DNA of 64,000 nt, taken from the NCBI RefSeq assembly GCF_000016545.1, contig NC_009437.1, positions 599,501-663,500 on the forward strand. The letters run 5' to 3'. This document shows positions 3,326 through 46,455 of the stretch, one piece after another (the first letter of the stretch is position 1; each line of letters begins with the position of its first letter). Source of the stretch: Caldicellulosiruptor saccharolyticus DSM 8903 (lineage in GTDB: Bacteria > Bacillota > Thermoanaerobacteria > Caldicellulosiruptorales > Caldicellulosiruptoraceae). The notes beneath the pieces were generated by a model. It worked only from the letters and a program-made list of their open reading frames with translations. It had not been told where the DNA came from and did not search any database. The position numbers and the translations under genes were made by a program.

Positions 3326-4091
3326 ATGACTAAAAATATTGTATCAAAAATAGAAGAACTTTTAAAGACTTTTGAGGACGGATTAGAGAAGATAGTGCGA
3401 AAGGAGAAGGATTTAGCAGAATATTCAATTGAGCTTAAGAAGCAATTGGACCAGATAGGTAAGGGGATGATAGAGGAGGCATGTAGATTTATAGATGAAG
3501 TGGTGAAAGAAAGCAAAGAGAGGAAGAAGAGGTATGAGGTTGTAAGGAAAGATAAGAGAAGTTTAAAGACAATATTTGGGGATATTGAATATGAGAGGAC
3601 GTATTATAGGGATAAAAAAAGCAAAGGATATGTTTATTTAGTGGATGAGATTTTAGGGATAGAGAGATATCAAAGGATAGACAATGCAGTAAAGGGAGCG
3701 ATAATAGAGAGGGTAGTGGAGATGTCATATGAGAAAGCAGCGAAGGAAGTATTAGGAGAAGATAGGATTAGTAGACAAAGTGTAATGAATATTTTGAAGG
3801 GGATAGATAGTAAAGAATTAGATGAAATCCAGCGTAGCAAGAGGGTAAGAGAAGGGAAGAAAGTTGTAAAAGAGCTTTATATAGAGGCGGATGAAGACCA
3901 TATTTCATTACAGAATGGGGAGAGGAAGATAGCAAAGCTTGTTTACATAAATACGGGATATAAGGAGAGAGGAGGTATTGTTAAGAGGAAAGAATTAAAT
4001 GATGTGCATTATTTTAGCAGTGTAAAAGAGGATGGAGATGATTTTTGGGCTAAAGTGAGTGAGTATATTGAAAAGAATTTTGAAGTTGAGA
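3326..4091 (+). pseudogene. ISLre2 (UPF0236) transposase, N-terminal part
   Basis: The first ~255 codons of an ISLre2-family transposase, starting at an ATG after an AAAGGAGGGA site. The N-terminal coiled-coil-like segment, the RRKDKRSLKTIFGDIEYERTYY-type core and the VKELYIEADEDH segment containing catalytic acidic residues are recognisable. Genuine coding ends at 4091, where an IS256 end begins; codons read beyond that belong to the IS256 terminus. It cannot make an active transposase. A closely related, shorter N-terminal piece lies at 34912-35198. Confidence 0.8.
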
Positions 4092-5400
4092 GAGACTTGT
4101 CAAGAATTTTGTGTTTCCATTTCATAGCGTATATTGTAGAGCTGTAATATATTGTAACTACATTTTTTAAGAATAGGTACTCCGTTTTTCCACTTGCCCC
4201 GACGCAAGTTTTCTCTTTGTAAATATATGTTTATCTCTAAAACTTCTACAGATTGAAAATAACCACCGGAGTTTATTCTTATCTTTTCAATCATACTGTT
4301 TACGCTTTCTACAGCATTAGTAGTATAAATGTACTTTCTTAAATCTTCAGGATACCTCATATGTGCAAGATAGAACTCTGCTTTTTCGCAAATACCTTTT
4401 ATGAATCGAGGATATTTTGAGGAGTATTGCTCACAAAGAAGTTTGAACTTTGAAATAGCTTCGTCAAAATCAGCAGAGGAAGTTCTTAGTTTATCAAGCT
4501 CTTTGTTGAAAACGGAAGCATCATCTTTTGCCATATGTTTTCTGACATTGCGTTGAAGGTGAACAAAACATAGTTGATGGTCGGCAAGGGGATAAGCGAG
4601 TCTAACAGCATCGATAATGCCTGGAAAATCATCGCTTACAACTATTAAGACTTTTTTAAGACCTCTTGTAATTAAGTCGTCAAAGACTCTCATCCAATCG
4701 GCTTTGTTTTCTTTGCCGAAGAAAGTGTAGATACCGAAGATATCTTTTTTGCCTTCTAAATCAATGCCAAGCACGACATAGCAAGTAGCTTGTTTAACTT
4801 TTGAGTTATCTTTAATTTCGCAATGGTAACCGTCAATGATAAGAGCAAAAGCACTTTCAGGAAGTTCTCTTTGTTTGAAAAGTTGAAGCTCGTTTTTAAG
4901 ATCGTTTTTGATTTTTTCGATTTCGTCTTCAGAATAAGGCAGATTCATGCTTTTAAGAGTTTGGACAAGAGAACTTTCTGAGTAACCATTGGCGACTAAA
5001 GACATGAGCAGGTCAGTGTATGAGCTGTCAACCCTTTTGTAGCGGTCAGGGAGAATGGAAGGTCGAAAGTTACCAGAGCGTGTGCGAGGAACAGAAATTT
5101 CAAGGCTGCCAACAGGTGTTGCAAGTTTTCTGCCGTAAAAACCATTGCCTTTATCGTTTTCGTTTTTAGCAAGGTAAACAGTTCTTTCTGATAACATAAA
5201 GCAATCGAGCAAGTTTTCCAAAAGCTGTTTTAAAGCTGGGCGAGTAGGATCATCTTTGGAGCAATACATATTTAATACTTGCTCGATAGCCATATTTTTA
5301 GCGGTTTCAAAAATTTCATTTTTCTCCATAATCGTGAGCCCCCCTTTGGTGATTATTTCAACACTAATTATACAGTGGACACAATTTTATTTTAACTCCC
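4092..5400 (-). mobile_element. IS256-family insertion sequence, copy 1
   Basis: A 1309-bp element. Its ends are GAGACTTGTCAAGAATTTTG on the left and, read from the right, GGGAGTTAAAATAAAATTG, forming imperfect terminal inverted repeats. The length is the same as copies at 21013-22321 and 35199-36507. The 8-bp flanks differ (AGTTGAGA on the left, CACTGGGA on the right), so there is no target-site duplication. This indicates deletion or recombination after insertion. Confidence 0.9.
4100..5329 (-). CDS. IS256/Mutator-family transposase
   Basis: An intact 409-residue Mutator-type DDE transposase that would cut and join the element ends. The likely catalytic residues are D166 (in IIDGYH), D233 (in VVSDDF) and E341 (in NAVESVNS). 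The family motif C254-x2-H257 followed by LQRN is also present. The length is typical of the family. The protein is identical to those at 21084-22313 and 35207-36436, which points to recent spread. The start follows a GGGGGG-type ribosome-binding site. A fourth, degenerate copy lies at 25378-26697. Confidence 0.95.
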   Translation of the reverse strand: MEKNEIFETAKNMAIEQVLNMYCSKDDPTRPALKQLLENLLDCFMLSERTVYLAKNENDKGNGFYGRKLATPVGSLEISVPRTRSGNFRPSILPDRYKRVDSSYTDLLMSLVANGYSESSLVQTLKSMNLPYSEDEIEKIKNDLKNELQLFKQRELPESAFALIIDGYHCEIKDNSKVKQATCYVVLGIDLEGKKDIFGIYTFFGKENKADWMRVFDDLITRGLKKVLIVVSDDFPGIIDAVRLAYPLADHQLCFVHLQRNVRKHMAKDDASVFNKELDKLRTSSADFDEAISKFKLLCEQYSSKYPRFIKGICEKAEFYLAHMRYPEDLRKYIYTTNAVESVNSMIEKIRINSGGYFQSVEVLEINIYLQRENLRRGKWKNGVPILKKCSYNILQLYNIRYEMETQNS

Positions 5401-5887: not shown

Positions 5888-5964
5888 CGGGGTGTAGCTC
5901 AGCTTGGTAGAGCACGTGGTTTGGGACCATGGGGCCGGAGGTTCAAGTCCTCTCACCCCGACCA
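5888..5964 (+). tRNA. tRNA-Pro (UGG)
   Basis: A 77-base cloverleaf with acceptor arms CGGGGTG and CACCCCG, anticodon loop TTTGGGA (anticodon TGG), a TTCAAGT T-loop and encoded CCA. First gene of a five-tRNA cluster. Confidence 0.95.
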
Positions 5965-6059
5965 TTAGAATAGATTGTTGAAAAGGGTATTGACAGAAAG
6001 GGAAAGCGTGTGCTAAAATACAAAAACGTCGGCTCTTAAAAAAGAAGAGAGTAAAAAAT

Positions 6060-6144
6060 GGAGGGGTACCCAAGTGGTCAAAGGGGGCAGACTGTAAATC
6101 TGTTGCCGCAGGCTTCGTTGGTTCGAATCCAACCCCCTCCACCA
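6060..6144 (+). tRNA. tRNA-Tyr (GUA)
   Basis: An 85-base class II tRNA with a long variable arm, acceptor arms GGAGGGG and CCCCTCC, anticodon loop CTGTAAA (anticodon GTA), a GTTCGAAT T-loop and encoded CCA. Confidence 0.95.
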
Positions 6145-6161
6145 CTAAGATTAAAAATGGT

Positions 6162-6237
6162 GCTGGCGTAGCTCAATCGGTAGAGCAGCCGACTTGTAAT
6201 CGGCAGGTTGCGGGTTCGAGTCCCATCGCCAGCTCCA
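6162..6237 (+). tRNA. tRNA-Thr (UGU)
   Basis: A 76-base tRNA with acceptor arms GCTGGCG and CGCCAGC, anticodon loop CTTGTAA (anticodon TGT) and encoded CCA. Confidence 0.95.
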
Positions 6238-6263
6238 TTTAATTTAATAAAAAAATAAAAGGT

Positions 6264-6339
<76 letters not shown>

Positions 6340-6347
6340 ATTTAAAT

Positions 6348-6424
<77 letters not shown>

Positions 6425-6515
6425 TTTGTTTTTGAGGGTTTTGATGGTTAGAATAGTATTATAAACATTTTTTTGATAATTATCTTTCAGCTATCTAAGA
6501 GACTGCAAAAATTTA

Positions 6516-6550
6516 GGGTAACTGCTCTGCTATCGTAGGAGCAGTTACCC
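6516..6550 (+). terminator. Hairpin terminator after the tRNA cluster
   Basis: A perfect 12-bp stem, GGGTAACTGCTC paired with GAGCAGTTACCC, with an 11-base loop, followed by a T-rich stretch. Its twin is at 41276-41310. It could also serve the minus-strand cupin gene. Confidence 0.75.
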
Positions 6551-6662
6551 TTATATTTTGTTTGCTAAAATACGTGATTTAACTTAATTTACAGCATTAT
6601 GATAAACTTAAACGAAAATGAAATATTTATACCTCTTTAGTTGTGGCAGCTCATGTTTTTTT

Positions 6663-6986
6663 TTATAGCTCATACTGATGGCCTTTTCGCCTTTTGCCCA
6701 TAAGAGGACCTTCCAACCAAAACATTGTTGTGTCTTCTAAAGCTTCTACAATTTCATGAAAATCTCCCATCCTTGTCCAGAGCATGTCACCTTTTTCAAG
6801 TATGTATTCCTTATCTTCTGAAATCACTTTTAGTTTTCCTTCGAGTACGAAATAGTACTCATCACAGTCGTGTGTATGTCTTTCTACAATGTTTTTTTGT
6901 CCTTTTTTATAATAAGCAATTCCCCACGAAGAAAATCCTGGGTCACCAAACAATAATGGCTGCTCATTTATGTTTCGTTTTGGCAT
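6663..6986 (-). CDS. Small cupin-domain protein (copy A)
   Basis: A 107-residue single-domain cupin. The metal-binding motif is visible as HTHDCDEYYFVLEG (residues ~37-50), and the second cupin motif as KGDMLWTRMGDFHEI (residues ~70-84). It is probably a cytoplasmic small-molecule-binding or isomerase-like protein; no substrate can be assigned. It is transcribed away from the glutamate synthase operon, so the two share a ~350-base regulatory region. Copy B at 41418-41741 differs by one residue (D to E within the metal motif segment). Confidence 0.8.
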   Translation of the reverse strand: MPKRNINEQPLLFGDPGFSSWGIAYYKKGQKNIVERHTHDCDEYYFVLEGKLKVISEDKEYILEKGDMLWTRMGDFHEIVEALEDTTMFWLEGPLMGKRRKGHQYEL

Positions 6987-7108
6987 TTTCTCACCTCAAA
7001 AAATTCATTTTTTCTCTTCAGTATGTTATACTTAAATTCTAACTTATAATCATTGCAATTAGAAGATATATTCAAAATTTTTTGTTTTTTATTTTAACAC
7101 CCAATGTT

Positions 7109-7156
7109 TTGCAAGTTCTGTACCAAAATTGCAAGTTTTTTATTCTCAACTTGCAA
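7109..7156 (+). promoter_or_regulatory. Three TTGCAAGTT sites upstream of the glutamate synthase promoter (copy A)
   Basis: TTGCAAGTT at 7109-7117 and again at 7129-7137 (20 bases apart, about two helical turns), then the inverted form AACTTGCAA at 7148-7156. The block sits 29-76 bases upstream of the -35 box of the operon, where an activator would bind. The same three sites at nearly the same spacing are kept in copy B. The binding protein is unknown. Confidence 0.55.
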
Positions 7157-7184
7157 GAAGCAAAAAATTCACCTCAATTTATTA

Positions 7185-7213
7185 TTGATTGTTTAAGAAT
7201 TTGCTGCTATAAT
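7185..7213 (+). promoter_or_regulatory. Promoter of glutamate synthase operon (copy A)
   Basis: TTGATT at 7185-7190, a 17-base spacer and a perfect TATAAT at 7208-7213. The resulting leader is about 115 bases and contains the palindrome ATACATGTAT. Conserved in copy B at 41941-41969. Confidence 0.75.
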
Positions 7214-7336
7214 TAAATTTAACACATTGTATACATGTATTATTGTTGTTCTTTGAATGCAAAATATATTAAGATTTTATCAAAAAAGAGAATAAATGTA
7301 AATAAAATTTCAATTTATATACAGGAGGTATAAAAA

Positions 7337-8431
7337 TTGTTAAGAGAAGGGCAAGTTAGGATTCCATCAGGTTGTGCTATTTCTGGGTTTATTAACAAAA
7401 AAGGTGTGAGGGTTTCTGGCACAGACATTATAAATTCCATTGCAATTATGAAAGAGAGAGGGAATGGACTTGGTGGTGGGTTTGCAGCTTATGGAATCTA
7501 TCCTGACAGGAAAGACTGGTATGCTTTTCACTTATTCTTTGACGATATAAAAGCAAAAGAGGACACAGAACATTTTTTGAACCAAAACTTTGAAATATTA
7601 GAAAGTGAAGTAATTCCAACAAGAAAGATTTCAAGTATTCAGAACGCTCCAATTGTTTGGCGATATTTTGTAAAACCTCTTGAAAAAAGGTTGAGAGACA
7701 CAGAAAAAACAGAAGAGGACTTTGTGGTGGACAGTGTTATGTTCATAAACAGCCAGATTGATGGTGCATATGTCTTTTCAAGCGGTAAGAACATGGGCGC
7801 ATTCAAAGGAGTTGGGTATCCTGAGGACATAGGCGAGTTTTTCAGAATTGATGAATATAAAGCATATATCTGGACAGCGCACTCAAGATTTCCAACAAAC
7901 ACACCTGGTTGGTGGGGCGGTGCGCATCCATTTACATTACTTGACTGGTCAATTGTCCACAATGGCGAGATTTCGTCATATGGCACAAATTATAGGTACT
8001 TAGAGATGTTTGGATACAAATGTACACTCAGGACAGACACCGAGGTTATGGCATATCTTTTTGACCTTCTTCTAAGAAGACACAGACTTCCTGTTGAGAT
8101 TGCAACAAAAGCGTTAGCAGCGCCGTTTTGGAGTGTGATCGACAGGCAAAGCGAACAAGAAAGAGAGAAACTGAGAGCTATCAGGATAGTTTATCAATCA
8201 TGCCTTGTAAATGGGCCGTTTTCTATCATTTTAGGTTTCTCAAACGGAATATTAGCATTAAATGATAGGATAAAGCTAAGACCGCTGGTTGCAGCACAAA
8301 AAGGCGATTTTGTTTATGTTGCTTCAGAAGAGTCGGCTATTAGAGAGATTTGCAAGGATCCAGAAAAGGTCTGGATGCCAAAGGGTGGCGAAGCTGTTTA
8401 TGTTACTTTGGACGAAGGGGTGATAGTATGA
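7337..8431 (+). CDS. Split glutamate synthase, glutaminase (class II amidotransferase) subunit, copy A
   Basis: A 364-residue Ntn-hydrolase domain that releases ammonia from glutamine for glutamate synthesis. The probable catalytic Cys is C13 (in PSGCAISGF), so the first 12 residues may be removed as a propeptide. Further glutaminase signatures are TAHSRFPTNTPGWWGGAHPF, VHNGEISSYGTN and LRTDTEV. In bacterial GltB this is the N-terminal domain of one large chain; here it is a separate protein, as in the archaeal-type enzymes of clostridia and Thermotogales. TTG start at 7337 after AGGAGGT. It overlaps the next gene by 4 bases (ATGA), so translation is coupled. Confidence 0.9.
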   Translation: MLREGQVRIPSGCAISGFINKKGVRVSGTDIINSIAIMKERGNGLGGGFAAYGIYPDRKDWYAFHLFFDDIKAKEDTEHFLNQNFEILESEVIPTRKISSIQNAPIVWRYFVKPLEKRLRDTEKTEEDFVVDSVMFINSQIDGAYVFSSGKNMGAFKGVGYPEDIGEFFRIDEYKAYIWTAHSRFPTNTPGWWGGAHPFTLLDWSIVHNGEISSYGTNYRYLEMFGYKCTLRTDTEVMAYLFDLLLRRHRLPVEIATKALAAPFWSVIDRQSEQEREKLRAIRIVYQSCLVNGPFSIILGFSNGILALNDRIKLRPLVAAQKGDFVYVASEESAIREICKDPEKVWMPKGGEAVYVTLDEGVIV

Positions 8432-9936
8432 TTTCGCTATATGAAAACGAATTTGAGGTCGTAAGGGACGAGCTAAAGTGTATTCGCTGTAAAGTATGTG
8501 TGAGACAGTGCGCAAACGAAGTTCATGAATATGATGAAGAAGAAGACAGAGTGGTTGCAGATTCTTCAAAATGCGTTGCATGCCACAGATGTGTTGTAAT
8601 GTGCCCAACAAAGGCGCTGACAATCAAAAAGACAGAAAATGCATTCAAAGAGAATGCAAACTGGCTACCTTCTTATATAAATGAAATATACAAACAAGCA
8701 GAAACAGGCGGGATACTTTTAACTGGTATGGGAAATGACAAGCCAATACCAATTTACTGGGATAGACTCTTAATAAACGCAAGCCAAGTTACAAATCCGT
8801 CGATTGACCCGCTGAGAGAGCCGATGGAGCTTAAAACCTTTATTGGTAGAAAACCTGACAAGCTTGAGTTTGATGAAAATGGTAATCTTAAAACCAAACT
8901 TCCGCCACAGCTTGAGTTAGAAGTACCTATTATGTTTTCTGCGATGTCGTTTGGCTCTATTTCACTCAATGCTTGCGAGTCTTTGGCGGCAGCAGCAGTT
9001 GAGGTAGGAACATACTGGAATACAGGTGAAGGTGGTCTTCATCAAAAGCTTTACAAGTACAAAGAAAGAGCAATAGTTCAGTGCGCATCAGGAAGATTTG
9101 GAGTTGATGTTGACTATTTGAATGCAGGTGCGGCGATTGAGATAAAGATAGGTCAGGGTGCAAAACCAGGGATTGGCGGGCACCTTCCTGGTGAGAAGGT
9201 TGGTGAAGAGGTATCAAGAACAAGGATGATTCCAATTGGTTCTGATGCAATCTCACCAGCACCACACCATGATATTTATTCAATTGAAGACTTAAGACAG
9301 CTCATTTTTGCGCTAAAAGAGGCAACAAACTACACAAAACCAGTTGGTGTCAAGATTGCAGCAGTTCACAACGTTGCAGCAATTGCCTCTGGTATTGCAA
9401 GAGCTGGCGCTGACTTTATCACAATAGACGGTGTCAGAGGCGGAACAGGTGCAGCACCGCTTAGAATAAGAGATAATGTTGGTATACCTATTGAGCTGGC
9501 TTTGGCAGCGGTGGACTCAAGACTTAGAGAAGAAGGAATTAGAAATCAGGTGTCAATCATTGTTGCAGGTTCAATCAGAAACAGCGCAGATGTTGTAAAA
9601 GCCATTGCACTTGGTGCTGATGCTGTTTTCATTGGAACAGCAGCGCTAATTTCCTTGGGGTGCCATGTTTGCCAGAAATGTCACACTGGTAGGTGTAACT
9701 GGGGTATTGCAACACAGGACCCTGTTTTGGTAAAAAGGCTAAATCCAGAAATTGGCGCAAGAAGAGCTGCAAATCTGCTTCGTGCTTGGGCGCATGAGAT
9801 AAAAGAGATGCTGGGCCTTATGGGAATTAATGCTCTTGAGAGCTTGAGAGGAAATAGACTGATGCTTCGAGCAGTTGGGCTTACAGAAAAGGAAATGGAG
9901 ATTTTAGGTGTAAAGCATGCAGGAGAGGGGGTCTAA
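8428..9936 (+). CDS. Split glutamate synthase, FMN-binding synthase subunit with N-terminal ferredoxin domain, copy A
   Basis: A 502-residue protein that condenses ammonia with 2-oxoglutarate using FMN and iron-sulfur clusters. Residues ~15-60 hold two four-Cys ferredoxin motifs (CIRCKVCVRQC and CVACHRCVVMC). The central FMN/glutamate synthase barrel follows, with MFSAMSFGSIS, GEGGLHQ, IKIGQGAKPGIGGHLPG and GVRGGTGAAPL. A Cys-rich CHVCQKCHTGRCNWGI near residue 410 would bind a further cluster. The start is taken as the ATG overlapping the upstream stop, because sequence further upstream is the coding end of the glutaminase gene. Residues 1-170 are identical to copy B. Confidence 0.92.
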   Translation: MISLYENEFEVVRDELKCIRCKVCVRQCANEVHEYDEEEDRVVADSSKCVACHRCVVMCPTKALTIKKTENAFKENANWLPSYINEIYKQAETGGILLTGMGNDKPIPIYWDRLLINASQVTNPSIDPLREPMELKTFIGRKPDKLEFDENGNLKTKLPPQLELEVPIMFSAMSFGSISLNACESLAAAAVEVGTYWNTGEGGLHQKLYKYKERAIVQCASGRFGVDVDYLNAGAAIEIKIGQGAKPGIGGHLPGEKVGEEVSRTRMIPIGSDAISPAPHHDIYSIEDLRQLIFALKEATNYTKPVGVKIAAVHNVAAIASGIARAGADFITIDGVRGGTGAAPLRIRDNVGIPIELALAAVDSRLREEGIRNQVSIIVAGSIRNSADVVKAIALGADAVFIGTAALISLGCHVCQKCHTGRCNWGIATQDPVLVKRLNPEIGARRAANLLRAWAHEIKEMLGLMGINALESLRGNRLMLRAVGLTEKEMEILGVKHAGEGV

Positions 9937-9940
9937 AAAG

Positions 9941-10408
9941 GTGGCAAAGAAGATATTCCCAAAGGAAGAGGTGTGTGTGGGCTGCCATTTGTGTGAGGTC
10001 TACTGTGTATATGCCCACTCAAAATACAAAAAGCCTACTGTAAAGGCTTATGAGCTTATAAAGCTTTACAACAAACACAAAGATTCAAAACCAACACCAA
10101 GAATTTTAGTTGAGGAAAAAAGTGGTGAGTGGACAACCTTTGCACTGCAATGCAGACATTGCGACGATGCCCCCTGCACTAAAGCTTGTATCACAGGTGC
10201 TATGAAAAAGCTTGAAGACGGAAGAGTCATTTGCGATGAGGAAAAGTGTGTCGGGTGCTGGTCATGTATAATGGCATGTCCACACGGGGCAGTAAGGCGC
10301 GGGGAGAACAAAAAAGCAGCATCTAAGTGTGATTTGTGCTTAGAACTTGGTGAACCTGCGTGCGTCAAGAACTGCCCGAACGAAGCGCTTGTAATCAAAG
10401 AGGTGTAA
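9941..10408 (+). CDS. Ferredoxin-type electron-transfer subunit of glutamate synthase, copy A
   Basis: A 155-residue polyferredoxin. It opens with CVGCHLCEVYCVYAH, continues with CRHCDDAPCTKAC and CVGCWSCIMACPHGAV, and ends with CDLCLELGEPACVKNCP. This gives at least three, probably four, iron-sulfur cluster sites of the DMSO-reductase-subunit or CooF type. It would carry electrons from the neighbouring NADH oxidoreductase to the synthase. I chose the GTG at 9941 because AGGAGAGGGGG lies about 9 bases upstream; an ATG at 9917 would overlap the previous gene by 20 bases. Confidence 0.85.
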   Translation: MAKKIFPKEEVCVGCHLCEVYCVYAHSKYKKPTVKAYELIKLYNKHKDSKPTPRILVEEKSGEWTTFALQCRHCDDAPCTKACITGAMKKLEDGRVICDEEKCVGCWSCIMACPHGAVRRGENKKAASKCDLCLELGEPACVKNCPNEALVIKEV

Positions 10409-10430
10409 AAAAAGGGGGAAATGAAGCAAG

Positions 10431-11699
10431 ATGAGATATGTTATAATAGGAAACTCTGTTGCAGCCTGTGGCTGTATTGAGGCAATAAGAAAAGTAGATC
10501 TACAAAACCCTATTGTTGTAATCTCAGATGAAAAGTACAGGGTTTATTCAAGGCCGCTCATTTCTTACTATCTTGGTGGAAAAGTTGACGAGAGCAAGAT
10601 GTATATAAGGGATGAGGATTATTATGAAAAAAACAAGGTAGAAGCAATCCTTGGCAAAAGAGCAGTTTCGGTTGATTTTAAAAACAAAGAGGTTGTGCTG
10701 GATGATGGAAGTAAAGTAAAATACGACAAGCTCCTTATTGCAACAGGTGGAAAGCCTTTTGTGCCACCTACAAAAGGATTTGAACTAAGGAATGTCTTTA
10801 CATTTATTAAGTTTGACGATGTAAAGGCTATAGATGAGGCAATTAAAAATGGTGCAAAAAAGGCAACGGTCATTGGTGCGGGACTTTCTGGTCTTAAGGC
10901 AGCAGAAGCACTTATCAAAAGGGGCTTGGAAGTTACAGTTGTTGAGCTTGCAAATAGGATTTTGGGTTCTATCTTGGATTTAGAGGCATCAAAAATAGTT
11001 CAAGCTGAACTTGAGAAACACGGAATTGTTTTTAAGCTTGAAACATCTGTTGATGAAATTATTGGCAATGGCAAGGTAGAAAAGGTAAGGCTGAAAAATG
11101 GTGAGGTTTTAGATAGCGACATAGTTGTGTTTGCCATAGGTGTTGTTCCAAATATTGACTTTTTGAAAGGGACAGAACTTAAAATCAACCGCGGAATTGT
11201 TGTAGATAACCATATGAGGACAAACATTGAGGATGTGTACGCAGCAGGTGACTGCGCAGAAGGGTATGACTGTGTATATCAGCAGCAAAGAGTAATTCCT
11301 ATCTGGCCAAATGCGTACAATCAGGGCGAGACTGCAGGTTATAATATGGCAGGGGTTGAAAAGACATTTGACAGAGGCTTCCCAATGAACTCTATAGGAT
11401 TTTTTGATGTGCATATGATAACAGCAGGAATTGTTATGCCAAACTCAGATGATATAGAGGTACTTGTAAAGCATGATAAAGAAAAAAATAGCTATAGAAA
11501 GATTTACATCAAAAACGGTAGTGTTTTAGGATTTATGTTTATAAACTCAATTGACAGAGCTGGTATGATAACAAACATGATAAAAGAAGATTTGAATGTA
11601 GAAAGCATAAAGCACAGACTCCTTGACGATGACTTTGGATACTTAGATTTGCCAAAAGAGCTGAGGCAAGAAAAGATTTTAGGGGGTGCAAAAGCTTAA
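10431..11699 (+). CDS. FAD/NAD(P)H oxidoreductase subunit of glutamate synthase, copy A
   Basis: A 422-residue pyridine nucleotide-disulfide-type reductase. It has an N-terminal FAD-binding segment (YVIIGNSVAACGCIEA), a central NAD(P)H-binding segment (ATVIGAGLSGLKAAEAL, residues ~143-160) and the FAD signature VYAAGDCAEG near residue 265. It resembles NADH oxidase, nitrite reductase and rubredoxin reductases rather than classical GltD. Its place inside the operon suggests it feeds NAD(P)H electrons through the ferredoxin subunit. Copy B differs by scattered substitutions. Confidence 0.88.
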   Translation: MRYVIIGNSVAACGCIEAIRKVDLQNPIVVISDEKYRVYSRPLISYYLGGKVDESKMYIRDEDYYEKNKVEAILGKRAVSVDFKNKEVVLDDGSKVKYDKLLIATGGKPFVPPTKGFELRNVFTFIKFDDVKAIDEAIKNGAKKATVIGAGLSGLKAAEALIKRGLEVTVVELANRILGSILDLEASKIVQAELEKHGIVFKLETSVDEIIGNGKVEKVRLKNGEVLDSDIVVFAIGVVPNIDFLKGTELKINRGIVVDNHMRTNIEDVYAAGDCAEGYDCVYQQQRVIPIWPNAYNQGETAGYNMAGVEKTFDRGFPMNSIGFFDVHMITAGIVMPNSDDIEVLVKHDKEKNSYRKIYIKNGSVLGFMFINSIDRAGMITNMIKEDLNVESIKHRLLDDDFGYLDLPKELRQEKILGGAKA

Positions 11700-11700
11700 A

Positions 11701-12456
11701 ATGGCAGATAAGCAAAAGCTTACTATAGATGCGAAGGGAGTACACTACAAAGAACTAAATGAGATGATTGAAAATGCCCTAAATGAGGGGTATAAAGAGA
11801 TAGATTTGATAAACGTAAACGGGCAGCGCTATATAGGTGATGGGTTGACTTTCCCAGACAGAAAACTTAACATCTATGGCACCCCTGGCAATGATATGGC
11901 TGCATTCATGAACGGGCTTACAATAGAGGTTTTTGCAAACGGTCAAGATGGTATTGGAAATACCATGAACGCAGGCAAAATCATAGTCCATGGCTCAGCA
12001 GGGGATATTATAGGCTATGGTATGCGCGGTGGCGAGATTTTTATAAAAGGGGATGTTGGCTACAGGGTTGGTATTCATATGAAAGAATACCAAGATAAGA
12101 TTCCTGTATTAGTTGTTGGTGGTAAGGCAGGAGATTTCTTAGGGGAGTACATGGCAGGAGGAAGAATTATTGTACTTGGTCTTACTTTAAAGGAAGATGA
12201 GGAGATAACAGGGCTTTATTGTGGAACTGGTATGCACGGTGGAATTATGTATTTAAGAGGTCAACTTCAACCATATCAGCTGGGAAAAGAAGTGAAAATA
12301 GTTGATATGGAAGAAGAGGATTATAAGTTTATAGACAAATACGTAACAGAGTTTGTAAAATACTTTGGCTACAGCAAAGAGTTTATAATGTCAAAGCCGT
12401 TTTATAAGCTAATTCCATACAACAAGCGTCCTTACGGCAAGTTGTATGCTTATTAA
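11701..12456 (+). CDS. Split glutamate synthase, GXGXG-domain subunit, copy A
   Basis: A 251-residue beta-helix protein matching the C-terminal GXGXG domain of bacterial GltB, here a separate chain. The repeated glycine pattern is visible in IYGTPGNDM, NTMNAGKIIVHGSAGDIIGYGMRGGEIFIKG, VVGGKAGDFLGEYMAGGRIIVLG and GTGMHGGIMYLRG. In the fused enzyme this domain is structural and positions the FMN and glutaminase domains. The ATG at 11701 follows the preceding stop by one base; a GTG at 11686 is an alternative start. It is the last gene before a hairpin terminator. Confidence 0.9.
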   Translation: MADKQKLTIDAKGVHYKELNEMIENALNEGYKEIDLINVNGQRYIGDGLTFPDRKLNIYGTPGNDMAAFMNGLTIEVFANGQDGIGNTMNAGKIIVHGSAGDIIGYGMRGGEIFIKGDVGYRVGIHMKEYQDKIPVLVVGGKAGDFLGEYMAGGRIIVLGLTLKEDEEITGLYCGTGMHGGIMYLRGQLQPYQLGKEVKIVDMEEEDYKFIDKYVTEFVKYFGYSKEFIMSKPFYKLIPYNKRPYGKLYAY

Positions 12457-12474
12457 TAAAAAAATTTTTTAGGT

Positions 12475-12520
12475 GGCCAGTGGTAATTTTGTTTTTGCCA
12501 TTGGCCGCTTTATATTATTT
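12475..12520 (+). terminator. Hairpin terminator after glutamate synthase operon (copy A)
   Basis: GGCCAGTGGTAA pairs, with G-T wobbles, with TTGCCATTGGCC, and a T-rich tail follows. Its twin is at 47229-47260. Confidence 0.6.
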
Positions 12521-12547
12521 TTAATAAACAGGGGGGTTTGCAATTTT

Positions 12548-13036
12548 ATGGATATTGAAAAGGTTTTATTTGAAATGATAAAATATTTCAAAACTGATGT
12601 GCGAAGAATAAACCATGCAATAAAGGTATTTTCGTTTGCAAGGCTGATTGGCAAAATGGAAGGGTTAGATGACAGTAAACAGCAGATTTTAGAGATAGCA
12701 GCTGTGTTGCATGACATTGGCATAAAGGTTTGTGAACAGAAATATGGTTCTACTGCTGGGCATTTTCAAGAAATAGAAGGTCCAGAGGTTGCAAAAGGTA
12801 TTTTAGATGGCTTTGATATAGACCAAAAGACATTAGAAAGGGTTCTTTTTTTAATTGGAAATCATCATTCATACCACAAGATAGATGACATAGACTTTCA
12901 GATTTTGATTGAGGCTGATTTTATTGTAAATATCTACGAAGATGGGATATCAAAAGATGCTATAAAGGTAATCAAGGAAAAATACTTTAAGACAAAAACA
13001 GGCACAGCGCTTCTTGAAACTATGTTTGAGGTGTAA
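12548..13036 (+). CDS. HD-domain phosphohydrolase (copy A)
   Basis: A 162-residue small HD-superfamily protein. The metal-binding pattern is seen as NHAIKV (His ~22), AAVLHDIGIKVCEQ (HD at residues ~57-58) and LIGNHHSYHK (residues ~106-115). Such proteins hydrolyse nucleotides or phosphodiesters; the substrate is unknown. ATG start after AGGGGGG. It lies past the synthase terminator but travels with that operon in both duplicated copies, which hints at a linked role or shared readthrough. Copy B uses a TTG start. Confidence 0.8.
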   Translation: MDIEKVLFEMIKYFKTDVRRINHAIKVFSFARLIGKMEGLDDSKQQILEIAAVLHDIGIKVCEQKYGSTAGHFQEIEGPEVAKGILDGFDIDQKTLERVLFLIGNHHSYHKIDDIDFQILIEADFIVNIYEDGISKDAIKVIKEKYFKTKTGTALLETMFEV

Positions 13037-13069
13037 GGAAAAGCCTTAAAGTAGTAAGTTTGGTAGCAC

Positions 13070-13104
13070 GGTCAACAGCTAAAAAAGTGCGTGTTGGCCT
13101 TTTT
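13070..13104 (+). terminator. Hairpin terminator after HD gene (copy A)
   Basis: GGTCAACA pairs with TGTTGGCC, followed by TTTTT. In copy B (47820-47846) the hairpin survives but the T-run is replaced by TTGAAAAA. Confidence 0.55.
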
Positions 13105-20569: not shown

Positions 20570-21012
20570 AAAATTTTACCAAAACTAAGAGGCTCTCTCA
20601 AAATAGTAATTTTCAATGGCCAAAATCAAGCATTTGATAGTATTAAATGTCAATATTAAGCTATGCAGTAAAAAACAAGAGGGTTGGCTGACAATTTTGC
20701 CCCAACCCTCTATTATTATCTTCGCTAACCTTTCTATGTTATAGGCAATACAAACCAAACTCTACTTTAGCTTCACACCCTTCAAGCCACTGAGCAGGAA
20801 ACTCCTAAATCCCTTATTATTCTTTATTATCCCAAATACTGTCTCAACTTCTATCTTCCTTCTGCTGTAAATCTCTTTGCCCACTTCGCTCAAAAGTCTT
20901 TCTCTTACTTCATTCTTTAACTTCTCCAATCTTGGCCTTATCCTAAATCTCTTCTTCCATCTCTTGCCTCTGTAACATTTATCTCTGTACTCACATCCAT
21001 TGCATATATCCT

Positions 21013-22321
21013 GGGAGTTAAAATAAAATTGTGTCCACTGTATAATTAGTGTTGAAATAATCACCAAAGGGGGGCTCACGATTATGGAGAAAAATGAAAT
21101 TTTTGAAACCGCTAAAAATATGGCTATCGAGCAAGTATTAAATATGTATTGCTCCAAAGATGATCCTACTCGCCCAGCTTTAAAACAGCTTTTGGAAAAC
21201 TTGCTCGATTGCTTTATGTTATCAGAAAGAACTGTTTACCTTGCTAAAAACGAAAACGATAAAGGCAATGGTTTTTACGGCAGAAAACTTGCAACACCTG
21301 TTGGCAGCCTTGAAATTTCTGTTCCTCGCACACGCTCTGGTAACTTTCGACCTTCCATTCTCCCTGACCGCTACAAAAGGGTTGACAGCTCATACACTGA
21401 CCTGCTCATGTCTTTAGTCGCCAATGGTTACTCAGAAAGTTCTCTTGTCCAAACTCTTAAAAGCATGAATCTGCCTTATTCTGAAGACGAAATCGAAAAA
21501 ATCAAAAACGATCTTAAAAACGAGCTTCAACTTTTCAAACAAAGAGAACTTCCTGAAAGTGCTTTTGCTCTTATCATTGACGGTTACCATTGCGAAATTA
21601 AAGATAACTCAAAAGTTAAACAAGCTACTTGCTATGTCGTGCTTGGCATTGATTTAGAAGGCAAAAAAGATATCTTCGGTATCTACACTTTCTTCGGCAA
21701 AGAAAACAAAGCCGATTGGATGAGAGTCTTTGACGACTTAATTACAAGAGGTCTTAAAAAAGTCTTAATAGTTGTAAGCGATGATTTTCCAGGCATTATC
21801 GATGCTGTTAGACTCGCTTATCCCCTTGCCGACCATCAACTATGTTTTGTTCACCTTCAACGCAATGTCAGAAAACATATGGCAAAAGATGATGCTTCCG
21901 TTTTCAACAAAGAGCTTGATAAACTAAGAACTTCCTCTGCTGATTTTGACGAAGCTATTTCAAAGTTCAAACTTCTTTGTGAGCAATACTCCTCAAAATA
22001 TCCTCGATTCATAAAAGGTATTTGCGAAAAAGCAGAGTTCTATCTTGCACATATGAGGTATCCTGAAGATTTAAGAAAGTACATTTATACTACTAATGCT
22101 GTAGAAAGCGTAAACAGTATGATTGAAAAGATAAGAATAAACTCCGGTGGTTATTTTCAATCTGTAGAAGTTTTAGAGATAAACATATATTTACAAAGAG
22201 AAAACTTGCGTCGGGGCAAGTGGAAAAACGGAGTACCTATTCTTAAAAAATGTAGTTACAATATATTACAGCTCTACAATATACGCTATGAAATGGAAAC
22301 ACAAAATTCTTGACAAGTCTC
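21013..22321 (+). mobile_element. IS256-family insertion sequence, copy 2, with intact target duplication
   Basis: A 1309-bp element flanked by the perfect 8-bp direct repeat TATATCCT (21005-21012 and 22322-22329). This fixes the element ends exactly: GGGAGTTAAAATAAAATTGT on the left, GACAAGTCTC on the right. It is inserted in the IS1182 transposase pseudogene. The clean duplication marks it as a simple and recent insertion, unlike copies 1 and 3. Confidence 0.95.
21084..22313 (+). CDS. IS256/Mutator-family transposase
   Basis: A 409-residue protein identical to those at 4100-5329 and 35207-36436, with the same D166/D233/E341 candidate catalytic triad. It is the only copy in a structurally complete, duplication-flanked element, so the best candidate for the active source element in this window. 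Confidence 0.95.
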   Translation: MEKNEIFETAKNMAIEQVLNMYCSKDDPTRPALKQLLENLLDCFMLSERTVYLAKNENDKGNGFYGRKLATPVGSLEISVPRTRSGNFRPSILPDRYKRVDSSYTDLLMSLVANGYSESSLVQTLKSMNLPYSEDEIEKIKNDLKNELQLFKQRELPESAFALIIDGYHCEIKDNSKVKQATCYVVLGIDLEGKKDIFGIYTFFGKENKADWMRVFDDLITRGLKKVLIVVSDDFPGIIDAVRLAYPLADHQLCFVHLQRNVRKHMAKDDASVFNKELDKLRTSSADFDEAISKFKLLCEQYSSKYPRFIKGICEKAEFYLAHMRYPEDLRKYIYTTNAVESVNSMIEKIRINSGGYFQSVEVLEINIYLQRENLRRGKWKNGVPILKKCSYNILQLYNIRYEMETQNS

Positions 22322-23870
22322 TATATCCTCACATTGATATATCTTCTCCCAACTTACAAATCCCCTCTCATTTACATCTACCCTCGGATATAAGTATTTT
22401 ACCTTCTTACCAGCAGGACAAATATATGCATCTTCAGAGGCAATATACTCCCAATTCCTGCTATTGAACTTGTCCTTCTTAAATTTCCTTGGCTGCTCTA
22501 AGTTAAATGTGTTATACTTAAATAGAACTATTGATGCCACGTTTTTTCAAATGAAGGTAGTTTCAATCAAGCCCATAGCCACTGTCTGCTACAATGTTCT
22601 TTGGCTTGTGAGCTGTTATCTTTTCCACAAGCTCAAGATGTTCTTTTAAACACATGTAGCCGTGGGGCTTTGGTGGATGCTAAAACCTATGACAAATCGG
22701 TTCTGTGTGCCGATTTGTACATTATACCCGGCTTTTAATTCCCGTTTTTCATACGGTCATCCTTCAGCCTCATAAACGTGGCATCATTGTCTGTTTTAGA
22801 AAAACTGTTCCTGCCATTTAAAATTGCCTCATTAATTTTCATACTTTTTGAGCCTGAAAACACAATCATTTTTCAATACCTTTACCAGCTTCTTTACTCT
22901 TTTTTCTTTTCTCTTGCTTTTAAACTCAGCCTACTCAAGTTTTTGGTTTATTTGCTCAATCTTTTCTTCTAACTGCTTGCTATCATAGTAAATTTCTAAC
23001 TTTACACCCAAATCTCTCAATGCTTTGTCTTCCTTTTCATTTATTTTTTCAATCTCTTCAATTATGTTTTTCACTTTCTCTCTTAACTTCTTTTCGAAAG
23101 TTCTTGTACTTTTAGCCCAAACAAATGAATACTTGTTTGCATTAGCTTCAGGTTTTGTCCTATCAAGATAGTAATAATCGAAGTTTACATACCCTAACTG
23201 TACAAGAAGTTTAACCACCTGAGCAAAAATATTTTCAATTGTCTCTCCTAAAATTTCTTTTTTAAATCTGTTGATAGTTCTAAAATCAGGGACTTGATAC
23301 TTTGAGAGCCACATAAAAGTAATATTTTCTTGTAAAGCCTGAGCTATTTTTCTTGATGAATAAATACCTTGTATGTAAAGCGTATATTAAAACTTTTAAT
23401 AACATTAGTGGATGGTAACTACTTGTACCACCGCCTTTGTACCTTTCTATTATGGTGGATATATCTATGATTTTATCAATTACTCTGACCAGATGATTTT
23501 GAGGTATAAAAGCTTCTGGGTCGATAGGCGTCAAATTATGGGCTGTAATTTTTGAAGACAACTTTATCATGTTTACGAGCCAAGGGTTATCACCTCACAT
23601 TATTATTTATGGTATATTACATCATAAATATATCGTATTGTAAAAATATCAAAATTAAAAGGAGCTGCCCAATTATCATTTTGGACAGCCCCTTATTTTT
23701 TTTAACTCTGGTTCATATAAAGTTAAGTTTGGACTTAAATCCTACGATAGTAGCAACTTTGTCTTATTCTAAACTCAAGAAAATCAAAGCAATTTTAAGC
23801 TATTTTAAGAAAAACGTAATTTTAGCTCAAAAATTGGCGAAATATCGTCTAAAAAAAGGAAAAAACGTGA

Positions 23871-25377: not shown

Positions 25378-26697
25378 GAGACTTGTCAAGAATTTTGTGT
25401 TTCCAATTTATAACGCAAGTAGTAAAGTTGGGTTATATTATTGATGCATTTTCTAATAGTGGGAACTCCATTTTTCCATTTTGTGCATTGTAAGTTCTCT
25501 CGCTGCAAGTAAATATTAATTTCTAAGACTTCAACAGACTGAAAGTATCCACCTGAATTTTCTTCTAGCCTTCTCAATCATGCTGTTTACACATAAAGCG
25601 GCGTTTGTGGTAAGAATATGCTTCCTTAATTCTTCAGGGTATTTCATATGGGCAAGATAAAACTCTGCTTTTTCTGATATTGCAGCAATAAAATCGAGGA
25701 TATTTTGAAAGATACTCGTTGCAAAGTTCTTTAAATTTAAATACTTATCAATCGAAATCAGAAGTTTAGAATTTTGATTTTGTCTAAACTCTTATTAAAA
25801 GTTGGAGCGTCTTCTTTTGTCATATGTTTTCTGATATTACGTTGTAGGTGGACAAAAGCAAACTTAAGATCAGCAAGAGGGTAAGCAAGTTTGACAGCAT
25901 CTATAATACCAGGGAAGTCATCACTTATGACAATTAGAATCTCTTTTAGTCCTATTGTAATTAAGTCGTCAAATACTTTCATCCAATCAGCCTTGTTTTC
26001 TTTGCCGAAGAAAGAACAGAATACCAAAGATATTTTTTTACTTTTCTTGAGTCAATACCGAGGACAACATAACAAGTAACATATTTGCCCTTAGAATTAT
26101 CCTTAACTTCACTTCTGAATAACCGTCGATGATTAAGAACAAAAGCACATGTAGAGAATTTTCTTTGTTTAAATAATTGAAGTTCATTTTTAAGGTCTTC
26201 TTTAATTTTTAGGATTTCGTTTTTGTAATCAAGAAGATTTAAATTTTTCAAAGTTTGAACAAGAGAATACTCAAGAGTACCCGTTGACGTACTCATGACA
26301 TAAGAAGGTAAGTAGATGAACTATCAACTCTTTTGTAGCGGTCAGGGAGGATAGAAGGGCAAAAATTCAAAAGTAACGTGTGCGAGGGACAGAAATTTCA
26401 AGACTGCCTACAGGTGTTGCAAGTTTTACTTCAATAAAAACCATTGCCTTTGTCATTGTCATTTTTAGCAAGGGCTACTTATTTTTCGATAACAAAAGGC
26501 AATCGAGCAGGTTTTACTTTTAGCTGTTTTAAAGCTGGGCGGTTAGGCTCGTCGCAAGAAACAATACATATTTAATACTTGTTCTACAGCTATATTTTTA
26601 GCAGTTTCGTAAATTTCGTTTTTATTCATTTTCATGCCCCCTTTGATGATTGTTTCAATACTAATTATACAGTGGGCACAATTTTATTTTAACCCCC
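25378..26697 (-). mobile_element. Degenerate IS256-family element with transposase pseudogene (copy 4)
   Basis: Both ends match the intact IS256 copies (GAGACTTGTCAAGAATTTTG at the left; CACAATTTTATTTTAACCCCC at the right) and the length, 1320 bp, is similar. The minus-strand transposase reads in pieces: SGGYFQSVEVLEINIYLQRENL, then NKADWMKVFDDLITIGLKEILIVISDDFPGIIDA, then NLNLLDYKNEILKIKEDLKNELQLFKQR, separated by frameshifts and stops. There is no 8-bp duplication (GCTTAGTG against TCAAGAGA). It is clearly older than the three identical copies. Confidence 0.85.
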
Positions 26698-27839: not shown

Positions 27840-27950
27840 TTATATTGTAATCTTTATTGAAATCTTTTTACTCTATGTATTTATTTTTATAATTTAGGTT
27901 TTATGAAGGTTCAGTCCAGGTCTGAATTTAAAGAAGTGAGGGGAGAAACT

Positions 27951-29414
27951 ATGAGTAAAGAACAAATCATAAAATATAAATATGCCGAAGAGAAAAAAAT
28001 AATACCACTTCCAAACGACGATATTATTATTTTAGATGTTTCATCGCCCAACTGGTTAAAAACATCAATTACAGGAAAATATTTATTAGAAGAAATGAAA
28101 GAACCTAAAACAATAGATGAATTAACTGCTAAAATATCTCAGGTTTACGGCTTACCAATAGACGTAGTTAAGCCTATTATTCGTGAGACTGTAGAAAAAT
28201 TTTATGAAACAGGTGTTGTTATAAGGATAGATAAAGACAACAAATTTACTTCGAGGGAAAAGCAGAAAATTGAATCATTAGGACTACAACAAATATGGAT
28301 TAATGTAACATATGCCTGTAATTTAAATTGTTCTCATTGTTTTGCACGTATGAAAGGAGATACAGGCTTTATACCTGCTAATGATTTAATTCGTATATTT
28401 AAAGAAGCTCAAAGCTTGGGAGTTCAGGAGATAGTGATATCTGGGGGCGAACCAACACTCCATCCTGAATTAGAAAATATATTAAGAGAAGCAAGAAAAA
28501 TAGGTGATTGGAAGATTAAGTTGATAACTAATGGATACTTATCTGGTAATCCTGAAAATGAAAGAAAAATAAAATCTCTTTGTAACTACGTTGATGATAT
28601 CCAGGTTTCTTTTGATGGGATAAAACCTGAAACTCATGATGCTATTAGAGGGAAAGGTTCTTTTGAAAAAGCGTATCGATTTATGTTTTTATTGTCAGAA
28701 GTTGAAAGCATTAAAACAGGTATTTCATTTACGCCATTACCAAAAAATATAAATGAGATTCCAAAATTATTTAATTTTGCAATTCAAGTTAAAGCAACTT
28801 ATATACACTTAAATCGGCCTAAGTATCCCCTTAATACTTTGGCTTTTCCGTCATTAGACTTATTCATGTCACAACAATTTGCTGAAGAAGCTTTTACTGC
28901 TTATGATAAACTTGTACAAGAATTCTATAAATCCTTCGAGGATATGAGAAATCTTAATGTTAGACTTCCAATTATCGATACAAGTTTTGATCCAGCTTCT
29001 GAATTACTAAGCCCACTTAAAAAAGAAAGGTGTAGTGCTGGTATATTGACAATTGCAATTGATCCAAAGGGAGATGTATTTCCTTGTGCTGCCTTAATGA
29101 GAAGAGAAATGTTATATTTTGGCAATGTTTTTGAGGAAGGACTTGAAAAGATTTATAAAAGAGGACGCGATAAAATGATAGAGTTATTTTCAGTTGAAAA
29201 AAATGATAAATGCAAAGAATGTTTGTTTCGATATTTCTGTGGTGGTGGATGTAGAGCAACTGCCAAGGATTTGAAGGAATGTGATTATTTATGTGATATA
29301 TTCCAAAAGCGCTTTATAGATTTTTGGAAAAGGATTTCTCTGCCTGTAATAAGAACTTATGCAAATAAGATTTACGAAACAAGAGAAGGAGGTATAAAAA
29401 GATTGACATGTTAG
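27951..29414 (+). CDS. Radical SAM/SPASM peptide maturase with N-terminal PqqD-like domain
   Basis: A 487-residue protein. Residues ~15-95 look like a PqqD-like recognition element that would bind the precursor leader (LEEMKEPKTIDELTAKISQVYGLP, VEKFYETGVVIRI). The radical SAM motif is CNLNCSHC (C123, C127, C130), followed by ISGGEPTLHPEL. The C-terminal SPASM domain has CSAGILTIAIDPKGDVFPCAAL and CKECLFRYFCGGGCRA with more Cys after it (CDYLC), for two auxiliary clusters. Such enzymes form thioether, C-C or ether crosslinks or other modifications in peptides. The ATG at 27951 follows GAGGGGAG; an upstream ATG at 27903 is less likely. It overlaps the next gene by 7 bases. Confidence 0.88.
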   Translation: MSKEQIIKYKYAEEKKIIPLPNDDIIILDVSSPNWLKTSITGKYLLEEMKEPKTIDELTAKISQVYGLPIDVVKPIIRETVEKFYETGVVIRIDKDNKFTSREKQKIESLGLQQIWINVTYACNLNCSHCFARMKGDTGFIPANDLIRIFKEAQSLGVQEIVISGGEPTLHPELENILREARKIGDWKIKLITNGYLSGNPENERKIKSLCNYVDDIQVSFDGIKPETHDAIRGKGSFEKAYRFMFLLSEVESIKTGISFTPLPKNINEIPKLFNFAIQVKATYIHLNRPKYPLNTLAFPSLDLFMSQQFAEEAFTAYDKLVQEFYKSFEDMRNLNVRLPIIDTSFDPASELLSPLKKERCSAGILTIAIDPKGDVFPCAALMRREMLYFGNVFEEGLEKIYKRGRDKMIELFSVEKNDKCKECLFRYFCGGGCRATAKDLKECDYLCDIFQKRFIDFWKRISLPVIRTYANKIYETREGGIKRLTC

Positions 29415-29683
29415 AAAAAAGACAATTAATTATGCAAAATATTACAACAGAACAACCGCTGAACGGCTGTATTAGAATAGTTAACAGTGAATATGAAATT
29501 TATCTTGGTACTCTCCAGGGATTGATTTGGAGAAAAATAAGTGAAAATGGACAATTGACAATAGGAGAACTTTATCAACTATTAATTTCAGAAAACATTA
29601 ATATCAGCTATGATGAATTAGTAGAAGTAGTATCTGTGTTTTTGCGTTATGGTTTGGTTGTAATACGAGATGAATTATGGTAA
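29408..29683 (+). CDS. Stand-alone PqqD-like peptide recognition protein
   Basis: A 91-residue protein with the length and pattern of PqqD-fold recognition elements: IRIVNSEYEIYLGTLQGLIWRKI, then a predicted winged-helix part (LTIGELYQLLISENINISYDELVEVVSVFLRYGLVVI). It probably binds the precursor leader and delivers it to one of the radical SAM enzymes. The neighbouring SPASM enzyme already has such a domain, so this one may serve the cobalamin enzyme. The ATG overlaps the upstream stop; GGAGG lies 13-14 bases before it. Confidence 0.7.
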   Translation: MLEKRQLIMQNITTEQPLNGCIRIVNSEYEIYLGTLQGLIWRKISENGQLTIGELYQLLISENINISYDELVEVVSVFLRYGLVVIRDELW

Positions 29684-29699
29684 TATGGGGGGAAGAATA

Positions 29700-34809: not shown

Positions 34810-35198
34810 CAAAAAGCTCCCTCCTCTTGGTAGAAGAGAAAAAATGATGTAGAATATAAGGTTGAAAAAACTAAAAAAGAAAAGGAAAAACAAACCAAAG
34901 GAGGGAGCAAAATGACTAAAAATATTGTATCAAAAATAGAAGAACTTTTAAAGACTTTTGAGGACGGATTAGAGAAGATAGTGCGAAGGGAGAAAGATTT
35001 AACAGAATATTCAATTGAGCTCAAGAAGCAATTGGACCAGATAGGTAAGGAGATGATAGAGGAGGCATGTAAATTTATAGAGGAATCAGCAAAAGAAAAC
35101 GAAGAGAGGAAGAAGAGGTATGAGGTTGTAAGGAAAGACAAGAGAAGTTTAAAGACAATATTTGGGGATATTGAATATGAGAGGACGTATTATAAGGA
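34810..35198 (+). pseudogene. ISLre2 element left end with truncated transposase
   Basis: Starts with the same terminal sequence as the element at 3223 (AAAAAGCTCCCTCCTC). The transposase begins at an ATG at 34912 after AAAGGAGGGA and gives about 95 codons (MTKNIVSKIEELLKTFEDGL to DIEYERTYYKE), nearly identical to the piece at 3326. It is cut at 35198 by IS256 copy 3. The remainder of the transposase is absent on the other side. Confidence 0.8.
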
Positions 35199-36507: not shown

Positions 36508-36864
36508 AGAGCAACCAAAAGAGAGTTAGAGACAGCTCACTGGTTTACAATTGCTTCTGCCATTGATATGGACTACAGAAAGCTTTTGATTGCACTTTTA
36601 GACCAAGGCACAGAGCTATTCTCTTCAATCTTTATAAAGAACCTCAAAGCTGGGAATAACAGAGAAGCTTCTCAGTGTTTAAGAACTCTTATCTTGCTTG
36701 AGTACTTAAAAGAGTGTATACACAATGAAGGTATTGAGAATCTGGTAGAGCTCAGATATCCACCATTGGAGGAAGAACTCAAGTTTTGGCAGGACAAAGG
36801 ATTCACAATTCCAAAGGACATATTTCTAAAATCTAAGTCAGAAAGCGAGGCGGTTTATCAATGA
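36508..36864 (+). pseudogene. 5'-truncated gene of a phage/plasmid-like element, unknown function
   Basis: The frame is open from the IS256 edge at 36508 (RATKRELETAHWFTIASAI) through 36864, 118 codons, so the start has been removed. An internal ATG at 36568 could initiate a 98-residue protein. Helical and soluble, not recognised. It overlaps the next gene by 4 bases (ATGA), showing it belonged to an operon now cut by the insertion. Confidence 0.6.
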
Positions 36865-41138: not shown

Positions 41139-41183
41139 CTTCTAATCCGTAGGTCAGGGGTTCGAATCCTCTTGGGCGCGCCA
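41139..41183 (+). pseudogene. tRNA-Arg 3' fragment, probable attachment site
   Basis: 45 bases matching tRNA-Arg 6380-6424 from the anticodon loop (CTTCTAATCCG) through the T-arm (GGGGTTCGAATCCT) to GGGCGCGCCA, with four mismatches that break the variable and T-arm pairing. No 5' half is present, so it is not a functional tRNA. It is the expected second attachment site of an element integrated into the tRNA-Arg gene. Downstream sequence is homologous to that downstream of the intact tRNA. Confidence 0.85.
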
Positions 41184-41275
41184 TTTGTTTTTGAGAGTTT
41201 TGATGGTTGGAATAGTATTATAAACATTTTATTTGATGATTATCTTTCAGCTATCTAAGAGACTGCAAAAATTTA

Positions 41276-41310
41276 GGGTAACTGCTCTGCTATCGTAGGA
41301 GCAGTTACCC
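41276..41310 (+). terminator. Hairpin terminator (copy B of 6516-6550)
   Basis: The same 12-bp stem GGGTAACTGCTC/GAGCAGTTACCC with identical loop, followed by TTTATATTTTG. Here it has no tRNA operon before it, but it may end the minus-strand cupin transcript. Confidence 0.65.
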
Positions 41311-41417
41311 TTTATATTTTGTTTGCTAAAATACGTGATTTAATTTACAGCATTATAATAAACTTAAACGAAAATGAAATATTTATACCTCTTTAGTTGT
41401 GGCAGCCCATGTTTTTT

Positions 41418-41741: not shown

Positions 41742-41863
41742 TTTCTCACCTCAAAAAAATCATTTTTTCTCTTCAGTATGTTATACTTAAATTCTAACCT
41801 ATAATCATTGCAATTAGAAGATATATTCAAAATTTTTTGTTTTTTATTTTAACACCCAATGTT

Positions 41864-41911: not shown

Positions 41912-41940
41912 GAAAGCAAAAAATTTACCTCAATTTATTA

Positions 41941-46454: not shown

Positions 46455-46455
46455 A

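Follow-up and report, generated by a model that had tools for sequence, protein, structure and literature searches.

A predicted operator upstream of the glutamate synthase operon of Caldicellulosiruptor saccharolyticus, recurring beside nitrogen-assimilation and PEPCK genes in Clostridia

The glutamate synthase operon and its upstream repeats

The stretch of DNA analysed here (the window, 64,000 nucleotides) belongs to the single-contig genome of Caldicellulosiruptor saccharolyticus DSM 8903 (2,970,275 bases) and carries two copies of a split glutamate synthase (glt) operon. According to Pfam, the operon encodes a class-II glutamine amidotransferase (GATase_2), the FMN/4Fe-4S synthase part (Glu_synthase with 4Fe-4S), a ferredoxin, a pyridine nucleotide oxidoreductase, a GXGXG subunit and an HD-domain protein. 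Upstream of its promoter, the word TTGCAAGTT occurs exactly at 7109-7117 (+), 7129-7137 (+) and 7148-7156 (-), with start-to-start steps of 20 and 19 bases; the preliminary description had reported two direct and one inverted copy at this place, and the exact matches bear it out. The second and third words form an inverted repeat, which can be laid out as TTGCAA-N16-TTGCAA with inner GTT/AAC, and to which the copy at 7109 adds a weaker extra half-site. The features are the following:

7109-7117, + strand: extra upstream half-site TTGCAAGTT, weakly conserved
7129-7156, no strand assigned: 28-bp inverted repeat TTGCAAGTT-N10-AACTTGCAA, copy 1, predicted conserved operator of the glutamate synthase operon
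7185-7213, + strand: operon promoter, TTGATT (7185-7190), 17 bases, TATAAT (7208-7213), its -10 box invariant in 12/12 genus genomes
7337-13036, + strand: split glutamate synthase operon
41864-41872, + strand: extra upstream half-site, copy 2, exact word match
41884-41911, no strand assigned: inverted repeat, copy 2, of the duplicated operon
42093-47787, + strand: second copy of the split glutamate synthase operon, by duplication

Transcription probably starts at about 7220, which would place the centre of the inverted repeat near -78. A -24/-12 promoter of the sigma-54/NtrC type was not found here; instead, the conserved TTGATT-N17-TATAAT promoter lies downstream of the site. Just past the -10 box there is a second strongly conserved box, ATTGTATACATGTAT (7224-7240, also 41980-41996), in which 13 of the 15 positions from 7224 to 7238 are invariant in the 12 genus genomes, and which could be another operator.

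The second array, with TTGCAAGTT exact at 41864-41872 (+), 41884-41892 (+) and 41903-41911 (-), was thought to have been kept while the bases around it changed. Its repetition is real, its preferential retention is not: the block 6380-13101 is duplicated at 41139-47848 with 94.6% identity, and this duplication of about 6.7 kb takes in the glt operon and both arrays. Between 6980 and 7344, the alignment with the second copy counts 8 substitutions and one gap, and a C/T difference at 7145 falls into the spacer of the array, which is therefore kept no better than its surroundings; lying inside the duplication, the second array is no independent evidence and proves nothing about selection. Nor is the 9-mer enriched in the window as such, with 50 matches at up to one mismatch vs 44 +/- 7 in shuffles (22 of 100 shuffles gave at least 50), so that only its clustering is unusual.

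Some observations on the surroundings should also be noted. The duplicated block has its start within the final gene of a cluster of five tRNAs (5888-6421) and includes a small cupin gene (6663-6986, - strand) divergent from the glt operon; in genome G007, the first gene of the operon is likewise present twice, the copies scoring equally and lying about 35 kb apart. The window also harbours a Mutator-family insertion sequence in three identical copies (4090-5400, 21011-22322 and 35198-36509) and a fourth at 76% identity (25378-26697), as well as two neighbouring radical-SAM genes (27903-29414 and 29670-31151), one related to SPASM peptide maturases and one to B12-binding radical-SAM proteins.

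Conservation in the family and recurrence in other genomes

Conservation of the array appears only in the comparison of species, and there it concerns the inverted pair 7129-7156 rather than the copy at 7109. The orthologous operon is found in 12/12 genus genomes (C. saccharolyticus included) and in one genome of a second genus of the family. When one upstream region per genome was aligned, TGCAAGTT (7130-7137) and AACTTGCA (7148-7155) proved invariant in all 12 genus genomes, mean column identity being 0.83 further upstream (7000-7108) and 0.88 in the spacer. The word at 7109 is exact in three of the 12 (C. saccharolyticus, L004 and L005), follows TTRCAAGCT in seven and is not recognisable in the second genus (L015). 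The conserved unit is thus the 28-bp inverted repeat rather than the triple array that had been proposed. Recurrence of the motif ahead of the orthologous operon in relatives, on which the preliminary description had staked its case, is seen within the family (11/11 other genus genomes, and 15 of 18 positions in the second genus) and does not extend to Thermoanaerobacter-type glt promoters, where no clear site was found, only degenerate TTGCAA pairs. Within the phylum of C. saccharolyticus, 398 genomes were searched for the exact core, which occurs in 8/8 genus members drawn and in 0/390 others.

A scan of GTDB (one genome per species) for exact TTGCAAGTT-N10-AACTTGCAA returned 88 stretches, where by our own estimate from base composition about 4 to 9 would be expected by chance; 80 were loaded, about three quarters of them clostridial by title (counted by hand). 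As neighbours we took ORFs starting near the site at these 80 loci, compared them with representatives and named most of them by NCBIfam/Pfam. At 53 of the 80 loci (54 minus L096, a generic ABC ATPase matching a GlnQ-like query), the neighbour encodes GOGAT, GS, GDH, Amt, aspartate aminotransferase, PEPCK or a related protein. Counting divergent pairs in both classes, these neighbours comprise long glutamate synthase (11), split glutamate synthase (8, with L080 and L093 having it there too), type III GS (8), aspartate aminotransferase type Ic (7), NADP-GDH (5), Amt (3), GTP-PEPCK (3), amino-acid ABC transport (3, namely one substrate-binding protein and two GlnQ-like ATPases that fall short of the curated cut-off), diaminopimelate dehydrogenase (2) and MetF-like proteins (2); type I GS, aspartate ammonia-lyase, ATP-PEPCK, SerC, a TetR-GS operon and RpiR are each represented once. 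Among the remaining loci are some from Bacteroidales, cyanobacteria and proteobacteria, whose matches are most simply put down to chance. The preliminary description had suggested an activator or a nitrogen-responsive regulator from the position of the array; the link to nitrogen is supported, in that many Clostridia carry the site beside genes for GOGAT, GS, GDH, Amt and aspartate aminotransferase.

A relaxed search of 14 clostridial genomes gave 40 sites vs 7 for the reversed pattern. Fifteen regions, chosen around sites from motif searches in clostridial genomes, add asparagine synthase, an RpiR-family gene (G424) and, named partly by eye, more genes resembling aspartate aminotransferase and one resembling GSIII. 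GlmS (G436/G452) was considered as a target and not counted, the listed site lying inside the gene near its start.

In the C. saccharolyticus genome itself, 11 sites with up to 3 mismatches in 18 were found vs 4 for the reversed pattern. Two of them are the predicted glt operators. Another, with 2 mismatches, covers the -35 box of the ammonium transporter gene amt, and a further one, with 3 mismatches, falls downstream of the -10 box and ahead of the start of the GTP-PEPCK gene pckG. Of the other seven, six fall in reading frames, including the one at 10926-10953 inside the glt oxidoreductase gene in the window, and one (L040) is intergenic. Seven further genomes were read at the amt site, six of them with the amt frame behind it (in G004 it is missing there), and six further genomes at the pckG site; with the listing of sites within 3 mismatches incomplete for three genomes, those with fully listed matches include one without an amt site (G008) and one without a pckG site (G007). 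Direct observation covers the site, its conservation, the genes beside it and where it lies at three genus promoters. By position, the amt and pckG sites would be those of a repressor, and the glt site near -78 would be suitable for activation or for repression from upstream. As a separate observation, a hairpin with a T run after it, almost without variation in the genus, lies behind the amt promoter (L037, L372-L378) and resembles an intrinsic terminator of a leader; it is also kept in G004, where amt does not adjoin.

A candidate regulator of the RpiR family

Regulators of the RpiR family have so far been known mainly from sugar metabolism. When the 543 ORFs surrounding the 80 sites were clustered, no regulator gene proved consistently linked to them, and the RpiR-family protein was chosen as the candidate from genome data, before the geometry of RccR sites (see below) was known to the analysis. 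It carries HTH_6 and SIS domains (Pfam, L242:1480-2340), its DNA-reading domain is nearly identical between clades, and solved structures exist for RpiR/MurR relatives. In C. saccharolyticus, the gene lies outside the window (2027142-2027975) and follows a gene for an oxaloacetate decarboxylase / pyruvate carboxylase subunit, a position in keeping with the PEPCK link. With the G424 protein as query, strong matches at 50 to 52% identity were obtained in 12/12 genus genomes (in G002 as two pieces), and the protein is present in 28 of the 30 motif-bearing clostridial genomes examined (30 out of 37 examined), no rpiR being found with this query in the motif-bearing G421 and G442. Six genomes from the rest of the phylum gave a 42% match (G057), two weak ones (G037, G038) and no RpiR match in G040, G047 and G049. 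The protein is also present in 14/14 genomes of the Thermoanaerobacter class examined, where the exact motif was not found, and this counts against a strict link between RpiR and the motif.

Within one clostridial order, the RpiR protein occurs in 83 of 147 genomes and the motif core (up to one mismatch) in 23, that is, in 20 of the 83 with the protein vs 3 of the 64 without it (Fisher p = 0.001; p = 0.002 without the seed genome G424); these p-values are optimistic, since completeness is not given for the genomes, so that missing genes may equal missing sequence, and since the hits of G462, G486 and G550 are the same stretch in related genomes. The reversed pattern occurs in 3/147 genomes of the same order. 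Sites also stand ahead of rpiR itself: in G441 with all 18 positions (L082, the exact site), in G424 with 17/18, in G427 with 16/18, and just upstream of the gene in G523 and G592. G441 and G424 were found through their sites, and therefore only G427, G523 and G592 are independent examples of a strong site. Among 80 rpiR upstream regions of this order (82 fetched with the seed left out, two of them too short), 14 score at least 12/16, vs 1/80 for the reversed motif and 3/274 for control windows from the same rpiR loci, which are probably richer in coding sequence; 66 of the 80 score below 12/16. In the genus, 11 rpiR loci were read and none has the site, the best reaching 12/18, the same as shuffles.

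Proposed regulon, alternatives and known systems

The exact site beside nitrogen and PEPCK genes at 53 of the 80 loci, together with the amt and pckG sites of the genus, points to 7129-7156 as an operator of a nitrogen-assimilation/PEPCK regulon in Clostridia and in this genus, bound most likely by the conserved RpiR-family regulator; we hold this reading to be probable. General caution is due, as three points weaken both the regulon and the RpiR claim: the findings in the Thermoanaerobacter class, the completeness values that the genomes lack, and GlmS not counting as a target. The identity of the regulator should be taken as a prediction from genome comparison. The same operator and regulon might be read by another, unlinked regulator, with rpiR merely one target in some Clostridia, an explanation we consider rather unlikely but serious. 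It would account for the lack of a regulator gene generally linked to the sites and for genus rpiR genes without a site, and other regulators are indeed met beside the motif: a TetR gene heads the GS operon behind an exact site in Acetivibrio alkalicellulosi (L090), and response-regulator genes stand across the site from aspartate aminotransferase at L048, L119 and L207. However, the TetR protein has only distant relatives in the C. saccharolyticus genome (best 22% identity), which led us to reject it. NrpR, which in archaea represses nitrogen-assimilation genes from an inverted repeat, was rejected as well, its domain (PF01995) being absent in 16/16 genomes (C. saccharolyticus included) and matching in two archaeal control genomes. 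Furthermore, rpiR is the sole regulator gene behind the site in several unrelated genomes and co-occurs with the motif.

Two further readings concern the glt array. It could be an activator site with a local regulator, for example of the LysR type, to which GltC of Bacillus belongs, and be unrelated to the sites of the same sequence elsewhere; the position near -78 (from the assumed start) and the additional half-site at 7109 would suit this. Yet the exact match of 18 positions with the same spacing beside glutamate synthase operons and other nitrogen genes elsewhere, and the presence of the site at amt and pckG in the same genus, make it very improbable. Chance repeats preserved only by recent duplication, or an RNA hairpin or terminator, deserve even less credence: the arms could pair in RNA, the 9-mer alone is unenriched in the window and the second copy is a duplication, but the same arms and spacing recur in unrelated surroundings beside nitrogen genes in many species, and the site over the amt -35 box would not be transcribed. 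Rfam has no match at the site at gathering scores.

Compared with known systems, the predicted operator is of an ordinary type, and the protein reading it most likely belongs to a known type of regulator, here in a function from which RpiR proteins have not been described. The GlnR/TnrA regulators of Bacilli, of the MerR family, likewise have an operator set ahead of GS, GOGAT and Amt genes; their site, TGTNA-N7-TNACA, does not occur in 7109-7156. HexR is an RpiR-family regulator of central metabolism that binds a pseudopalindrome, but it reads TTGT-N7-8-ACAA with a short spacer at sugar genes. Closest in geometry is RccR of Pseudomonas, an RpiR-family protein which, according to the accessible part of its description, binds 28-bp pseudopalindromes whose two 6-bp arms are separated by 16 bases, recognises a 15-bp site as well and, at the pckA promoter, a 29-bp version, controls gluconeogenesis including pckA, has a site at its own gene and responds to KDPG (PMC5489143). 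The 28 bp and the 6+16+6 layout equal TTGCAA-N16-TTGCAA at 7129-7156; the candidate here is of the same family and would likewise control a PEPCK gene, and a site at the candidate's own gene is seen in some Clostridia and absent at the 11 genus loci. The arms, in contrast, are TGTAGT/ACTACA in RccR and TTGCAA here, and the targets named in that part of the description are carbon genes, with no nitrogen-assimilation genes among them. Among the matches listed in a literature search leaving most subscription journals uncovered, no paper linked RpiR or the motif with clostridial nitrogen control, and a term search of a study on regulator binding profiles in C. thermocellum met none of the words nitrogen-, RpiR, glutamine, glutamate or TTGCAA (PMC8457756).

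Should the RpiR-family protein be the regulator, it would read one TTGCAA(GTT) arm on each side, about two helical turns apart, while its SIS domain might sense a phosphorylated sugar or a related carbon/nitrogen signal. At amt, with the site over the -35 box, and at pckG, with the site between the -10 box and the start codon, it would hinder transcription; at glt, from the site near -78, it may activate or repress from upstream, perhaps aided by the half-site at 7109. Such a regulon would tie GOGAT, GS, GDH, Amt and aspartate-family enzymes to the PEP/oxaloacetate step (PEPCK). More tentatively, and as a possibility we would not yet favour outright, a global RpiR/SIS regulator of carbon and nitrogen metabolism in Clostridia and related thermophiles, acting on TTGCAA-N16-TTGCAA operators and sensing sugar phosphates, may set GS/GOGAT/GDH/Amt, aspartate-family synthesis and PEPCK.

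If this is true, a hitherto unrecognised global RpiR/SIS regulator would do the job of GlnR/TnrA or CodY in Bacilli. For many gut and rumen Clostridia we know of no described regulator of ammonium assimilation, and a shared operator, a list of neighbouring genes and one conserved candidate make the question of ammonium control directly testable by gel shift. In the cellulolytic thermophiles, the switch would couple glutamate synthesis with the PEP/oxaloacetate node.
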